From contig NC_019678.1 in the NCBI RefSeq assembly GCF_000316665.1, positions 5,704,001-5,768,000 of the forward strand: DNA of 64,000 bases. Direction: 5' to 3'. Positions within the stretch are counted from its first letter, which is position 1. The number at the start of each line of letters is the position of its first letter. The DNA comes from Rivularia sp. PCC 7116 (GTDB taxonomy: Bacteria; Cyanobacteriota; Cyanobacteriia; Cyanobacteriales; Nostocaceae). Below are positions 26,345-44,921 of this stretch, piece by piece. The notes beneath the pieces were generated by a model. That model was given only the letters and a program-made list of their open reading frames with translations, ran no database searches and was not told the origin of the DNA. The position numbers were made by a program, and so were the translations under genes.

Positions 26345-26938
26345 TTATAGAAAACTTCTGATAATTAATTCGGACAACATAACTAAACCTTCAGCGAAGC
26401 CGGGAACTAAAAATATAATTATTAAACCGAACATCCCGATTGGACTATCTTGAAATGGCTTAAAACTAGGAAAAAAGCTACAGAATATATGAAATCCATC
26501 CAGGGGAGGAATGGGTAGTATATTTAAGAAAAATAAAGTCAAATTAACTCTAGCAGCCAAATGAAGAAATTCCGTACTGACTATTTCTGAATTATAAAAA
26601 CTTAATAACAGTCCAATTAATATAAATCCCAAAGCTAAATTACATAAAGGACCTGCTACAGATACTAAAAAATCACTGATTCTACCATTACGAAATTTAT
26701 TAGGATTTATAGGCATTTGTCCCCAAGATATGCCTGCTATACATAGAAAAATTATTGATTGCCATCCCATATGAACTACGGGATTTAAAGTAATATGTCC
26801 TGCTTTCTTTGGTGTATTGTCTCCTTGAGCCATCGCTACAACACCATGACAAAGTTCGTGTAAGGTTATTGAAATTATCAGAATTGCAATATATCTAAAG
26901 AAAAAAACCGGATTTTGGATAAGCGTATTAATAAACAT
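26345..26938 (-). CDS. M50 site-2 protease-like, copy B
   Basis: The 197-residue integral membrane protein carries the zinc motif HELCH near its N-terminus, the GHITLNPVVHMGWQSIIF segment and the second zinc-ligand motif LPIPPLDGFHIF. This matches the compact cyanobacterial/Firmicute M50B group (YwhC/FpaP type), which cleaves within the membrane or of which many have no known substrate. It is a close paralogue of the gene at 27405-28016 with the same layout. It overlaps no gene; the small membrane protein follows by 89 bp. Confidence 0.9.
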   Translation of the reverse strand: MFINTLIQNPVFFFRYIAILIISITLHELCHGVVAMAQGDNTPKKAGHITLNPVVHMGWQSIIFLCIAGISWGQMPINPNKFRNGRISDFLVSVAGPLCNLALGFILIGLLLSFYNSEIVSTEFLHLAARVNLTLFFLNILPIPPLDGFHIFCSFFPSFKPFQDSPIGMFGLIIIFLVPGFAEGLVMLSELIIRSFL

Positions 26939-27404: not shown

Positions 27405-28016
27405 TTAAAACGCTAATGTCAATCTCAAAAAATTTGTAATTATTAAATCTACAATCGTGATTAATCCCGCACCAAAACCAGGAATTAGAAATACAATCAT
27501 TAAACCAAATGCTCCCATTTGACTACGTTCCAACTGCTTTAATTCTGGAAAAATATTACTAAATATATGAAAACCATCTAGTGGAGGGATGGGTAATAAA
27601 TTAAATATAAATTGAGCTAAATTAATTCTAGCTGCGAGATAAAGAAAATCTTTACTAATAAATCCTGAATTGTAAAAAAGAGATAGTAATGCAATAAATA
27701 TAAACCCTAAAGCTAAATTACATAAAGGCCCTGCTGCGGATACTAAAATATCGCTGAATTTACCATTACGAAATTTATAGGGATTTACAGGCATTTGTCC
27801 CCAAGACATACCAACAAGACATAGAAAAATTATTGATTCAACTCCCATATGAACCACGGGATTCAAAGTTATATGTCCTAATTTTTTAGGAGTGTCATCT
27901 CCTTGACTCAACGCCGCAAAACCATGAGCCAATTCGTGTAAACATATTGAGATAATAACAATTACAATATATCTAAAGAAAAAAGCTGGATGAGTAACAA
28001 GTGTAGTGAGAAACAT
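27405..28016 (-). CDS. M50 site-2 protease-like, copy A
   Basis: The 203-residue membrane protein has HELAH, GHITLNPVVHMGVESIIF and LPIPPLDGFHIF, the two zinc-binding motifs of intramembrane metalloproteases, and four to five hydrophobic segments. It is strongly similar to copy B throughout, with differences scattered, so the duplication is not recent. It is the most upstream member of the leftward cassette ending with the DapF-like gene. Its substrate is unknown. Confidence 0.9.
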   Translation of the reverse strand: MFLTTLVTHPAFFFRYIVIVIISICLHELAHGFAALSQGDDTPKKLGHITLNPVVHMGVESIIFLCLVGMSWGQMPVNPYKFRNGKFSDILVSAAGPLCNLALGFIFIALLSLFYNSGFISKDFLYLAARINLAQFIFNLLPIPPLDGFHIFSNIFPELKQLERSQMGAFGLMIVFLIPGFGAGLITIVDLIITNFLRLTLAF

Positions 28017-40109: not shown

Positions 40110-41597
40110 ATGTTAAATTCATCAGAAACAGGAATTATAGCTGCGATTGTAGTAATTGCCTTTGGAATTTTGGCATGGGGTTTTATTCGTGCAAAACCTT
40201 ATGGTAAATTGGGCATTCTAGCTTGGTTCCAGTCGGTTGTGTTGATAACCCCTTGGCTGCTGTATTTCGGTTTGCTTAGTGCGGGGATTTATATCAACAT
40301 TGCAGGTATATTATTTCTAGCGATCGCCTTTGCTGGTTTATATATTGCCATTGGCAGGCAGTTACGGGCGATGGGGCAAGAAGAAATGATTAAGAAGAAA
40401 GCATCCGAAAGAATCGCTGAGGAAGCATCGCAAGAAAAAGCTGACCCATTAATTGCAGGTAATACACCATCACAACCGGAAATAATTCCGATTCCGGAAG
40501 AAGATTTGAGTACTATTAGGAGTATTTTCGGCATCGATACATATTTTGCAACCGAAACTATTGCTTATCAAGAAGGAGCTATTTTTAAAGGTAATTTAAG
40601 AGGAGAGCCAGAAGAGGTTCACAACCGTTTGAGTGCGAGTTTAAAAGAAAAGGTGGGCGATCAATATCGCTTATTTTTACTAGAAAATCCTGAAGGTAGA
40701 CCTACAGTAATTGTTTTACCGAGCCGCAACGATCCTCGTTCAATGAGTCCGGGACAGAAAGCCTTTGCAGGTATCCTGTTATTAGCAAGTATCGCTACAA
40801 GTTTAGAAGCGGGAGGAATTTTATTAGGTTTTGATTTCTTTTCTAATCCAGCAAGATATCAAGAATCTTTACCTATTACATTAGGTTTTTTCACGGTTTT
40901 ATTAGCTCACGAGGTGGGACACCGGGTAATTGCCGATCGTCACGGAGTCAAATTGAGTTTGCCTTACCTGCTGCCTTCAGTGCAAATTGGTTCTTTCGGC
41001 GCAATTACCCGTTTTGAATCATTGCTGCCCAATCGTAAAGCCTTGTTCGATATTGCTTTAGCAGGTCCAGCCGTTGGAGGAATTGTTTCGTTTCTAATGT
41101 TGATTTTGGGATTGTTGCTTTCTCATGAAGGTAGTTTCTTTCAATTACCAAACGAGTTTTTTCAAGGTTCTATTTTAGTCGGAATTTTAGCGCGAGTTTT
41201 CCTAGGCAATACTTTGCAATCATCTTTGGTAGACGTAAATCCTTTAGTGATAATTGGCTGGTTGGGTTTAGTGGTTAGTGCTTTTAACTTGATGCCAGCA
41301 GGACAGTTAGATGGCGGTAGAATAGTGCAAGCAATTTATGGACGTAAAATAGCCGGACGCACTACATTCGCAACTTTAATTATTTTAGGATTAGTAGGCT
41401 TGGGTAATGCTTTAGCTTTATATTGGGCAATTGTGATTTTGTTTTTACAAAGAGACTTAGAGCGTCCGAGCTTAAACGAAATCACCGAACCCGATGATAC
41501 ACGGGCTGTATTAGGACTTGTAGCTTTATTCTTAATGGTTGCAACTTTGATTCCTTTGAGTCCCGGTTTGGCTGGTAAGTTGGGAATTGGCGGATAA
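40110..41597 (+). CDS. Site-2 protease family membrane protein (EGY-like M50)
   Basis: The 495-residue protein has two N-terminal helices, a charged soluble segment (about 90-220, containing STIRSIFGIDTYFATETIAY), and a multi-pass C-terminal domain with the zinc motif HEVGHR and the second motif LMPAGQLDGGR. The layout and the FGIDTYF wording match EGY proteins of chloroplasts and cyanobacterial homologues, which are intramembrane metalloproteases of the thylakoid or plasma membrane. Active-site residues are intact. No obvious substrate gene is adjacent. Confidence 0.9.
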   Translation: MLNSSETGIIAAIVVIAFGILAWGFIRAKPYGKLGILAWFQSVVLITPWLLYFGLLSAGIYINIAGILFLAIAFAGLYIAIGRQLRAMGQEEMIKKKASERIAEEASQEKADPLIAGNTPSQPEIIPIPEEDLSTIRSIFGIDTYFATETIAYQEGAIFKGNLRGEPEEVHNRLSASLKEKVGDQYRLFLLENPEGRPTVIVLPSRNDPRSMSPGQKAFAGILLLASIATSLEAGGILLGFDFFSNPARYQESLPITLGFFTVLLAHEVGHRVIADRHGVKLSLPYLLPSVQIGSFGAITRFESLLPNRKALFDIALAGPAVGGIVSFLMLILGLLLSHEGSFFQLPNEFFQGSILVGILARVFLGNTLQSSLVDVNPLVIIGWLGLVVSAFNLMPAGQLDGGRIVQAIYGRKIAGRTTFATLIILGLVGLGNALALYWAIVILFLQRDLERPSLNEITEPDDTRAVLGLVALFLMVATLIPLSPGLAGKLGIGG

Positions 41598-41818
41598 GGT
41601 AATGGGGAGATTGGGAGGATAAGGTTATAAGGAGATTTACCCTAAAAACTTGTCTGCGCTATCTCCTGCCCTTTTTTATTTCTATCTTACTTTTAGATTA
41701 CCTATAAAAGTTTCTCCTCTCCCCCAAGAAATTCCGTCATCATAATTTTATACTTTAATCACTAATCAAGTAAAATTATCCCTAGACAATATTCTCTTTG
41801 CTTAAACCACCCTCTACT

Positions 41819-42760
41819 ATGCTCTCACGGAAGCCCAGACCTTCGTTTATTCGTTTTGTTGGTATAGCAACTATTGGGTTCGGGCTATGTTTTATTACAG
41901 AAAAATCGGTGTTGGCTGATGAATTAGGTTACCTCGGTCCCACCGGAACCTACTCCGAACAAGCAACTAAAGTTTATCAATCGCAAACACCTGGCTTTGA
42001 GAAAGTTGTTCCCTACAAAACTATTACTGCTGTCACGACTGCGATTAAAAGTAGTGAGGTGAAAAGGGGACTAATTCCTATCGAAAACTCGGACAGTGGC
42101 TTTGTCGCTGAAACCTACCGTCTCATCTTTGAGAAAATCGACCCCGAATGGCGGATAATTGATGAGGTAACGATTCCAATTACCTCTAGTCTGCTTGTAA
42201 AAACCGGTACCAAAGCTAGCAATATCAAACAAATTATCTCCCATCCCAATGCTTTACGGGGAGTAGCAACCTATTTAAAACAAAATTTTCCTGAAGTCCC
42301 TTTGATTGAGGTAAATTCTACCGCAGCAGCTGCGAAACTAGTATCTAATGGTGACGGTACAACTGCTGCTGTTGCTTCACCTAATGCTGCCAAAGTTTAC
42401 GGACTTCAAACTATCGCTACTAATATCCAAGATAATAACTACGAGACAAATTTTTGGATAATTGCGCGGTCAAATTTAGCTTCATTCGACCCCAATTCCA
42501 ACCATTTGATTATTTCAATCAAAGCACCTTCCGGCTCGCGAATCTTTTCAGAAACTATCGCAAAACTACAAAAGGCTGGCTTTTATGTAGTGAATGTCAA
42601 TTCAATACCCCTTGGTGAAAGTATTCACAGCTATCGCTATTTAATTAGATTTGAATCAAAATCCCAAAATTTCAACAATCTCAAACAAGTAAAAACATTA
42701 CTCAAAGCAATGCAAAACTCGGACGGAGAAGTAATTCTTCTCGGTGCTTATCAACGCTAA
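41819..42760 (+). CDS. Exported prephenate-dehydratase-like protein
   Basis: From the ATG at 41819 the 313-residue protein begins with a basic start and a hydrophobic signal (FVGIATIGFGLCFITEKSVLA). It then shows the full prephenate dehydratase fold: GYLGPTGTYSEQAT, KRGLIPIENSDSGFVAETY, ISHPNALRG, STAAAAKLV, AAVASPNAAKVYGL, and a C-terminal ACT-like domain (SGSRIFSETIAKLQKAGFYV). The catalytic Thr-Arg-Phe motif reads T-N-F here (NNYETNFWI), so activity is uncertain. Cytosolic PheA enzymes normally lack a signal. It converges with an exported chorismate mutase 29 bp away, which suggests a joint periplasmic role. Confidence 0.85.
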   Translation: MLSRKPRPSFIRFVGIATIGFGLCFITEKSVLADELGYLGPTGTYSEQATKVYQSQTPGFEKVVPYKTITAVTTAIKSSEVKRGLIPIENSDSGFVAETYRLIFEKIDPEWRIIDEVTIPITSSLLVKTGTKASNIKQIISHPNALRGVATYLKQNFPEVPLIEVNSTAAAAKLVSNGDGTTAAVASPNAAKVYGLQTIATNIQDNNYETNFWIIARSNLASFDPNSNHLIISIKAPSGSRIFSETIAKLQKAGFYVVNVNSIPLGESIHSYRYLIRFESKSQNFNNLKQVKTLLKAMQNSDGEVILLGAYQR

Positions 42761-42789
42761 AGCTCTCACTTAAATCCTATAAGTAAGCT

Positions 42790-43431
42790 TTATTTGATTG
42801 GATTTACAACGGAATAAATTACCTTAGACAATAAATCAATAAAAAGCTCGCGATCGCTACTGGGATAAATTCCATCTAAATCAGCTAATGATTTTCTTAG
42901 TCCATCTTGTATTTGCTCAAAAGTAATGGAATTGGAACCCCGGATTAATCCAAAGCTATTCACAATCGCTTCATCAATTTGGTCGATGCGCTGTCTAATT
43001 TGGTTTAGCGAAAGTTTTGCTGTTGTACTTTCATTTTTCCATAAATCAAACCAGTACTGCTGGATTTGACGGGAAACATCCATCACAATTTGAGAGTAAA
43101 GTTGCATTTCCCTCACAGGAAGTTTGTTTTTTTTGGCAATAGTACCAATATTGTCCAAAACTGCTATTTCGCGTACTCCATCATAAATAGGTTTTTTCTG
43201 AGGATATTTATTAGCTGCGACTTCTTTCATCAAGCGCTCTCGCTCATAAATTAAGCACCATAATCGATTAGCTGGAGAAAATTGTTTTGAGTTACAACTT
43301 TTTACAGGATTCTCCCCAAAAACCACAGTTGCTTTTTGATAATTGATTGGTACGCTTATTACTTGGGGATGAATGATAAAAGCTATCAGCAAAAATACCA
43401 GGATCGCCACAAGCGAAAAATATTTTCTCAT
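42790..43431 (-). CDS. Exported AroQ-gamma-type chorismate mutase
   Basis: From the ATG at 43431 the 213-residue protein has a signal/anchor helix (YFSLVAILVFLLIAFIIH) and an all-helical domain. RLMKEVAANK, the PIYDGVREIAVLD stretch and LYSQIVMDVSRQIQQYWFDL align in pattern with secreted AroQ-gamma mutases such as the M. tuberculosis enzyme (Arg and Lys in the first helix, Arg after PIxD, Gln/Ile in the later helix). These convert chorismate to prephenate outside the cytoplasm. The in-frame ATG at 43479 adds residues encoded by a dispersed repeat, so it is not chosen. Downstream partner: the prephenate-dehydratase-like gene, convergent. Confidence 0.78.
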   Translation of the reverse strand: MRKYFSLVAILVFLLIAFIIHPQVISVPINYQKATVVFGENPVKSCNSKQFSPANRLWCLIYERERLMKEVAANKYPQKKPIYDGVREIAVLDNIGTIAKKNKLPVREMQLYSQIVMDVSRQIQQYWFDLWKNESTTAKLSLNQIRQRIDQIDEAIVNSFGLIRGSNSITFEQIQDGLRKSLADLDGIYPSSDRELFIDLLSKVIYSVVNPIK

Positions 43432-43526
43432 TCCGCGATGACACACCATAACTAATTTTGCGGATATCATATCATTCATCTTGATTCTAAAAAAAAGAAC
43501 CTCTCCCCCTCCCTTGTCCCCTGCTT

Positions 43527-44921
43527 CTAACTCTTCGAGTTAGCTAAAAGATTCGGATATTTCGCTGGTGATGAAAATAATTCCTGTAAACCAGAAATAC
43601 GCTGTTGCGATGGTTGTTCGCTTAGATTCCACAGGGTTTCGTAGAAGAAGAAAGAAACTCCGGCAAAGTTGCGATCGCGCACTTGTTTTACTTGAGCTTC
43701 GATTTGTTCTACTGGTACGTGTTTATTTTTCAAGCCGGAAAGAATGCCAATACTTGTGGGAATATGCTTTTTAGCGGCGATTACTTCGGGTTGCTGCAAT
43801 TCCTTGATAAACACGTTCATGTCGTTGCGGTAAATTTGAACTATCAAATCTTCTATCAACCCCATACGCTCCCATCTTTGCCAATCTGCTAAAAAGTATT
43901 CGTAGGAAAAACGTTGGGGATTTGGTGATACGGAAACAATACAGTTTTTATCGACGGCTTTAATGGCGAAAAATACCTCTTTCATGAAGTCGGTAATTTT
44001 ATCTGCACGCCATTTTAGCCATTCTGGATTTTTATTATCTCTAGGAGGTGCTTTACCGTTATGTTCTTTTTTGTATAGCGCTACAGTATATCTATCGTAT
44101 CCATATTCCGATGGTAAGCCGAAATGGTCGTCAAATTGAATCCCATCAATATCGTAATTTTGCACCATTTCTACGATTAAATCTTTGATAAATCCCTGCA
44201 CGTCGGGACGAAACGGATTTAACCAAACTCGATCGTGAACACCTTCTTTTTTGATTTTGCTACCGTCAACTTTACTTGTAAGCCATTGAGGACGACGTTT
44301 TGCTAATTGGGAATCGGCAGGAGCCATAAAGCCAAATTCAAACCAAGGAATTACTTTTAAACCCCTCTCATGTCCTTCACTAACCGCTTCTGTAAGCATA
44401 TCGCGCCTTCTCAATCCCGGCTCTGGATCTACGCTACGTCCGATAACTCTTCTGGCAACTCTACTAGGATACAAAGTGTAACCCCAGTTCCACACCGCAG
44501 GATATACAACGTTAAAATTTAATTCTTTGAGGCGCGTTAAAGCATCTTTTAGCTTTTCACTTGAAAATAAAACATCGCTGTCAATGTTAGTTAACCATAC
44601 TCCCCGTAATTCAGTTGGTTGCTGACGATTGGTAACAGTTTGCGGTTGAGGAGGTTTAATAGTCGGTAGCTGCCCAGGTGTAGTCTTCGGCAATCGATTG
44701 GGGTTACTCGTTGGTACGGGTGGTATCACAGTTGGCACATTTTGGTTGACAACTGTTGGTTGCTGACGGGTTTTAATAATTACTTGAGCCGGTGCTGGGA
44801 CAGAAAACATTACCCCAGCCATCAGCGACAGAGTAAAAATAGCTGCAAGAAACGCCGGTTTTTGTCTGCGCTGCTGACTCAACGAAAACTGGCTAATACA
44901 CCACTTAACAAATTTTTTCAT
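43527..44921 (-). CDS. Exported glycoside-hydrolase-like (GHL10/DUF187) protein
   Basis: The 464-residue protein starts with a signal peptide (AAIFTLSLMAGVMFSVPAP), a Pro/Thr/Gln-rich linker (about 55-105), then the GHL10 TIM barrel: RGVWLTNIDSDVLFSSEKL, NFNVVYPAVWNWGYTLYPS, GLKVIPWFEFGF, DGIQFDDHFGLP, CIVSVSPNP, and GVSFFFYETLW. Family members act on polysaccharides, possibly peptidoglycan; catalysis is not biochemically well defined. It lies 95 bp upstream of the chorismate-mutase gene on the same strand and could be co-transcribed. Confidence 0.87.
   Translation of the reverse strand: MKKFVKWCISQFSLSQQRRQKPAFLAAIFTLSLMAGVMFSVPAPAQVIIKTRQQPTVVNQNVPTVIPPVPTSNPNRLPKTTPGQLPTIKPPQPQTVTNRQQPTELRGVWLTNIDSDVLFSSEKLKDALTRLKELNFNVVYPAVWNWGYTLYPSRVARRVIGRSVDPEPGLRRRDMLTEAVSEGHERGLKVIPWFEFGFMAPADSQLAKRRPQWLTSKVDGSKIKKEGVHDRVWLNPFRPDVQGFIKDLIVEMVQNYDIDGIQFDDHFGLPSEYGYDRYTVALYKKEHNGKAPPRDNKNPEWLKWRADKITDFMKEVFFAIKAVDKNCIVSVSPNPQRFSYEYFLADWQRWERMGLIEDLIVQIYRNDMNVFIKELQQPEVIAAKKHIPTSIGILSGLKNKHVPVEQIEAQVKQVRDRNFAGVSFFFYETLWNLSEQPSQQRISGLQELFSSPAKYPNLLANSKS

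Follow-up and report, generated by a model that had tools for sequence, protein, structure and literature searches.

Two adjacent genes in the analyzed stretch of the Rivularia sp. PCC 7116 genome (64,000 nucleotides, hereafter the window) encode a leader-bearing prephenate dehydratase (PDT)-like protein of the PheA type and an AroQ-type chorismate mutase (CM) with a hydrophobic N terminus that probably serves as an export signal. We tentatively read the pair as a laterally moving, extracytoplasmic module leading from chorismate through prephenate to phenylpyruvate, with a PheA-type protein as the partner of the mutase, although this reading falls somewhat short of an even chance. The open reading frames (ORFs), export-type leaders, AroQ residues, loss of phenylalanine (Phe) motifs, two loci with empty sites, and purifying selection are found by sequence, and the PDT and ACT folds of the PDT-like protein are predicted by a structural model. 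We infer the extracytoplasmic location, the mutase and dehydratase activities, the source of chorismate, and the fate of phenylpyruvate.

The PDT-like gene (41819 to 42760, plus strand) encodes a 313-amino-acid, putatively exported PheA-type protein with a leader at approximately residues 1 to 33, a PDT domain at residues 37 to 218, and an ACT-like fold at approximately residues 229 to 311; an alternative TTG at 41798 opens its longest ORF. The CM gene (42790 to 43431, minus strand) encodes a putatively exported AroQ-type, AroQ-gamma-like mutase of 213 amino acids. Its longest ORF starts at 43479, and DNA similarity to the congener G004 stops at the ATG at 43431. Both ORFs are intact and run as originally predicted. 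The genes do lie side by side, as had been proposed, but they are convergent, with stop codons 29 nt apart. They therefore do not form one transcript, and an operon was ruled out. Promoter and terminator scans returned sites no more numerous than in shuffled sequences, and a PHROGs search matched only families of unknown function.

The original prediction assigned signal peptides to both products, and a simple hydropathy scan is in keeping with export of both. The PDT-like protein has a Sec-type leader with a net charge of +4 in the n-region, a hydrophobic core at residues 17 to 26, and a V-L-A cleavage candidate at residue 33. The CM N terminus is very hydrophobic at residues 7 to 16 (mean Kyte-Doolittle value of 3.7) and carries a net charge of +2. 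Its cleavage candidates are weak, so the mutase may stay uncleaved and anchored in the membrane. The same scan identified leaders on a 65% identical relative in the genome G557 and on a 42% identical relative encoded by Deinococcus gobiensis plasmid P1; the PDT-like copy of G004 starts at a contig edge, which leaves its leader out of the comparison. The premise that the normal counterparts of these proteins are cytosolic agrees with the remainder of the host genome (8.73 Mb, three contigs). This genome contains another, leaderless PDT (its PDT match begins at residue 4), which we take to be the housekeeping PheA, and one AroH of the cytosolic type, while the window CM is the only CM_2 match. 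Because PheA and AroH are present as well, the pair is, by sequence, additional to a complete cytosolic route, and the idea that the window mutase is the sole CM of the cell was rejected.

The CM matches Pfam CM_2 with 40.6 bits (E value of 3e-10; cut-off of 27). Its residues R64, K75, D84, R87, E88, S120, and Q124 align with R28, K39, D48, R51, E52, S84, and Q88 of the Escherichia coli enzyme, which we take to be the catalytic AroQ residues. The catalytic set is thus complete in the alignment, and R146 is likewise retained. The AroQ-gamma pattern claimed for the mutase stands in part: like the AroQ-gamma CMs of the family, it has a hydrophobic N-terminal segment of the leader kind, the AroQ catalytic residues, and a similar length. 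In contrast to them, it scores below the curated cut-off of the AroQ-gamma profile TIGR01806 (55 bits against 74.15; E value of 8.1e-15) and lacks the conserved C-terminal disulfide cysteines. Of 30 relatives, 29 and 28 have a cysteine in the two columns concerned, where the window protein carries a phenylalanine and a gap; C46 and C59 are the sole cysteines that it contains. Structure prediction, which the original prediction had suggested as a check, gave a usable model for the PDT-like protein (pLDDT of 79) but a poor one for the CM (pLDDT of 53), with no PDB match for the latter at an E value of ≤0.001.

Pfam PDT was the sole match of the PDT-like protein at an E value of ≤1 (residues 37 to 218; E value of 7.7e-48; 163.1 bits against a cut-off of 25.2), and the PheC family, of the solute-binding-protein type, gave no match. 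On the NCBIfam prephenate dehydratase equivalog PRK11898, it reaches 166.7 bits, below the cut-off of 219. The identity to the PheA of the host is 33% over residues 36 to 232. Conservation was judged against 60 comparison PDTs, presumed to be ordinary, with residues numbered as in E. coli. The protein retains 40 of the 74 columns conserved at ≥85% and 13 of the 20 invariant ones, including E159, N160, S233, T278, and F280. The invariant columns lost are D171, Q215, C216, N276, R279, G309, and R331. The TRF motif reads TNF, which bears out the mutated motif noted in the original prediction, and the Q215 column holds a glycine. R279 of this motif is missing throughout the exported clade of four proteins described below, and Q215 and N276 are absent from the three cyanobacterial ones, although the exact N276 column varies with the alignment used. 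The 42% identical Deinococcus relative likewise retains the Glu-Asn, His-Pro, and Thr positions. D171 and C216 were dropped as decisive losses, since GqqA of Komagataeibacter europaeus lacks both and yet complements an E. coli pheA mutant (PMC8192741). In the fungal enzyme EqPdt, mutating the Thr of TRF abolished activity (PMC11980547), and this Thr (T278) is present in the PDT-like protein. From these motifs, catalysis by the protein is uncertain.

The AlphaFold2 model consists of PDT and ACT folds, in agreement with the fold originally proposed. PDT structures, GqqA among them, occupy the top 16 ranks and cover nearly the whole mature length; weaker matches include effector-binding domains, such as that of BenM. 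The original prediction also considered a Phe sensor acting through the ACT-like domain. This suggestion has lost ground: the GALV and ESRP motifs, named as ligand motifs (PMC10845154), read RIFS and NSIP in the PDT-like protein, which makes Phe feedback or Phe sensing through this domain unlikely.

The pair lies between an M50-family (site-2-protease type) peptidase gene (40110 to 41597, plus strand; PF02163, E value of 3.7e-19) and a glycosyl hydrolase-like (GHL10) gene (43527 to 44921, minus strand; PF02638, E value of 1.9e-95), both outside the proposed module. Elsewhere in the window, two similar short same-strand ORFs (26345 to 26938 and 27405 to 28016) both match Peptidase_M50 and are likely tandem paralogues. 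The flanks align with pair-free sites of congeners up to 41598 to 41617 and again from 43499 to 43528, with one short match from 43472, pointing to an inserted segment at 41618 to 43471 with approximate junctions. In G002 and G004, the M50 and GHL10 genes directly adjoin, with no pair between them; in G006, they are separated by a single 23S_rRNA_IVP gene (PF05635, E value of 1.3e-29). The same gene precedes the GHL10 gene in the closest congener, G005, where the site splits across two contigs. A 42-bp stretch of the window (43472 to 43513, plus strand; 81% identity to G005, E value of 5.8e-6) is likely the scar of the 3' end of this four-helix-bundle gene. The two flank genes are on different contigs in G007, both adjoin contig edges in G001, and the GHL10 gene was not found in the 84% complete genome of G003. 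As the pair is missing between the flank genes of G002, G004, and G006, a functional link with either of them is unlikely.

Besides its empty site on contig 27, G004 has a copy of the pair on contig 110, where the next neighbor is a tocopherol cyclase gene (PF14249, E value of 1e-165). The two copies of the pair are 85 to 86% identical, and DNA similarity (41878 to 43432) covers almost exactly the two coding regions. Adjacency of the two genes is thus conserved in a single congener, and there at another locus, so that the lack of any conserved neighborhood, named in the original prediction as a refuting outcome, was not observed. This pattern suggests a two-gene cassette that apparently moved between genomes, presumably laterally. 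A 98-bp remnant of the CM 3' end (74.5% identity) on G004 contig 388 (L036:1504-1601) seemingly marks a third former place. The junction sequences have no further copy in the window or in five compared loci, except for 26 bp of homologous flank in G006, and junction repeats were set aside as a transfer mechanism on these grounds.

Among 60 genomes, namely the host (G000) and 59 relatives, only G000 and G004 have the CM and a PDT-like protein that scores high. In the others, the best PDT match has an E value of 5.7e-26, the level of an ordinary PheA, one genome has no match at all, and the CM was not matched outside G000 and G004. Neither gene was found in six of the seven congeners (G001 to G003 and G005 to G007, with G003 at 84% completeness). 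In the whole family, Nostocaceae (217 genomes), there is one further carrier of the PDT-like protein, G557 (E value of 1.1e-132, 65% identity; next match, 3.2e-28), in which the gene lies approximately 660 kb from the AroQ-gamma CM gene of that genome. In a phylum sample of 386 genomes without G004 and G557, G000 alone scores high (next match, 4.1e-32, 33% identity). A single-sequence search with the CM in this sample returned itself and three weak matches (E values of 4.4e-5 to 9.9e-4). Such a search is insensitive, and the profile TIGR01806 finds more: 31 of the 217 family genomes exceed its cut-off, and 19 more, including G000 and G004, fall below it. All three family genomes with an exported-clade PDT have an AroQ-gamma-type CM, compared with 33 of 217 overall, a count that comprises the 31 genomes over the cut-off plus the two with linked genes and leaves out the 17 with weaker matches. 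Statistically, this co-occurrence is weak, because two of the three genomes share one linked pair.

Among 20 relatives on named genome contigs, the protein of Richelia sp. UBA3308 is 84% identical and the other 19 are 23 to 30% identical. On plasmids, 61 records matched the PDT-like protein, the closest being D. gobiensis P1 (42% identity), a plasmid on which no CM_2 match was found. There, the next protein after the PDT relative, encoded on the same strand, has a leader and carries the annotation tripartite tricarboxylate transporter substrate-binding protein (L048:7935-9866). PDT-like proteins with TLF instead of TRF occur in two alphaproteobacterial metagenome-assembled genomes (L071 and L072). 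A viral or phage origin was rejected: a pattern search hit 12 stretches of viral contigs, none of them a relative, and 17 phage records, 11 of which cover at least 80% of the query, are 23.8 to 33.3% identical, no nearer than ordinary PDTs.

A 66-row tree groups the window PDT-like protein with those of G004, G557, and D. gobiensis in one clade (100/100), whose stem has a length of 2.89. This exported clade falls outside a 37-row clade of PheA proteins from cyanobacteria of the same order (100/100), so that the window protein is no recent duplicate of the host PheA. Nearest to it is the PheA of five genomes elsewhere in the phylum, with modest support (87/82) and subject to a long-branch warning. 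Leader-bearing PDTs on Natronococcus and Variovorax plasmids were not counted as relatives, as they join weakly (82/22) or not at all, and PDT export may therefore have arisen more than once. The former, from Natronococcus sp. CG52 (NZ_CP099393.1; L049:3884-4777), combines an intact TRF with a twin-arginine-like leader (RRKFLNRTG, motif recognized by eye) and may be a haloarchaeal PDT that is exported independently of the others. The latter, from Variovorax boronicumulans (NZ_CP138497.1; L050:4007-4867), may be annotated with too late a start (4043), as an upstream in-frame ATG yields a signal-peptide-like leader; its E159 and N160 columns both read T.

Between the window and G004, dN/dS equals 0.18 for the PDT-like gene and 0.20 for the CM gene, against 0.10 to 0.18 for control genes and 0.17 to 0.18 for the flank genes, so that both genes are, judged by these ratios, under purifying selection. 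Their dS values (0.44 and 0.39) are lower than those of four control genes (0.70, 0.67, 0.84, and 0.59). This suits a transfer after the genomes split, and slower evolution of the pair is a possible alternative cause.

In the module that we tentatively favor, the AroQ-type mutase would convert chorismate that escapes from the cell itself or is released by lysed neighbors into prephenate, which the PheA-derived partner would most likely dehydrate and decarboxylate to phenylpyruvate without Phe feedback control, or else would only bind. The complete catalytic set of the CM, the core columns and PDT-ACT fold retained by its partner, purifying selection, adjacency kept at differing sites, the PDT/AroQ-gamma co-occurrence, and the presence of cytosolic-type AroH and PheA besides all speak for it. 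By analogy, an exported CM with a PheC-type dehydratase is described as an experimentally proven, Phe-insensitive combination (PMC10520331). The module reading is weakened by the losses of R279, Q215, and N276, the NCBIfam score below the cut-off, the convergent genes, the poor CM model, the restriction of adjacency to two genomes of one genus, and a co-occurrence resting on three genomes. The periplasmic chorismate-to-phenylpyruvate branch of the original prediction accordingly keeps T278, E159, and N160 in its favor and has the loss of R279, N276, and Q215 against it.

These same losses, together with the long stem of the exported clade, would suit the main rival, in which the PDT-like protein is a noncatalytic extracytoplasmic binder of prephenate or phenylpyruvate that, with the mutase, senses or captures chorismate. 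The PDT domain is stated to have a fold of the periplasmic-binding-protein type in work on PDT and GqqA (PMC8192741), weaker fold matches reach effector-binding domains such as BenM, and the Deinococcus relative adjoins an annotated transporter substrate-binding protein. However, the catalytic Thr and Glu-Asn pair persist even in that 42% identical relative, where they would be superfluous for a pure binder, and the pair in the window neighbors peptidase and glycosyl hydrolase-like genes rather than a transporter or receptor. We regard this rival as rather unlikely. A narrower version appears less probable still: in it, a PheA-type dehydratase, once exported, gave up allostery as well as ordinary catalysis and turned into an extracytoplasmic receptor for prephenate that moves between genomes with its own CM. 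PheC is thought to be derived from a solute-binding protein, so that such a receptor would represent the evolutionary reverse of PheC.

It is improbable that the two proteins are unrelated in action, with the exported PDT-like protein working alone and adjacency reflecting one shared transfer event. G557 and the Deinococcus plasmid do carry the PDT-like gene without a neighboring CM gene, and the convergent arrangement precludes cotranscription. Yet the stretch in common with G004 coincides almost exactly with the two genes, which show similar divergence (dS of 0.44 and 0.39), and G557 still carries an AroQ-gamma CM elsewhere. Very little speaks for a signal-quenching acyl-homoserine-lactone hydrolase, or another amide hydrolase, like the PDT-family acylase GqqA (PMC8192741). 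The model of the PDT-like protein does match GqqA (7am0, E value of 6.3e-20), but canonical PDTs fit it at least equally well and by sequence better, GqqA coming sixth and last. No particular resemblance to GqqA emerged, and in the alignment, GqqA retains Q215 and TRF, both altered in the PDT-like protein. GqqA does illustrate that a PDT-family protein can have an added role outside Phe synthesis (PMC8192741).

The preferred module can be compared with several described systems. The AroQ-gamma and PheC pair of Pseudomonas aeruginosa and the exported CM-CDT fusions, which contain PheC-type domains, likewise place CM and prephenate dehydratase steps beside the cytosolic enzymes, and they are described as free of Phe feedback, as the window pair would be (PMC10520331). 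Their dehydratase belongs to the solute-binding-protein lineage (PMC10520331), whereas the window encodes a leader-bearing PheA-type PDT-ACT protein, unfused, in a convergent gene. With PheA-type PDTs (PF00800 plus ACT), that protein shares the whole predicted fold, E159, N160, S233, T278, and F280; it differs in its leader, TNF for TRF, and the changed Q215, N276, GALV, and ESRP positions. The powdery mildew Erysiphe quercicola secretes a cooperating CM and PheA-type PDT, EqCmu and EqPdt, the latter unaffected by aromatic amino acids and carrying NSRP instead of ESRP (PMC11980547), where the window protein has NSIP. These proteins are fungal and TRF is intact in EqPdt (PMC11980547); the likeness is one of description rather than of compared sequences, and we suggest no role in a host for the cyanobacterial pair. 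They are the only similar case among the literature matches listed, which cover few subscription papers and describe neither an exported bacterial PheA-type PDT nor such a PDT/CM pair.

What bacteria gain by exporting chorismate mutase is described as unsettled, and the purpose of exporting the CM-CDT fusions has been called an enigma (PMC10520331). If the module reading is correct, the Rivularia pair would represent an independent extracytoplasmic pairing of both steps, beside PheC and the CM-CDT fusions, and would suggest that the combination itself, rather than the PheC lineage, is selected. The pair offers a natural test of whether export accompanies the loss of Phe control, and it hints at a little-known handling of leaked pathway intermediates outside the cytoplasm.
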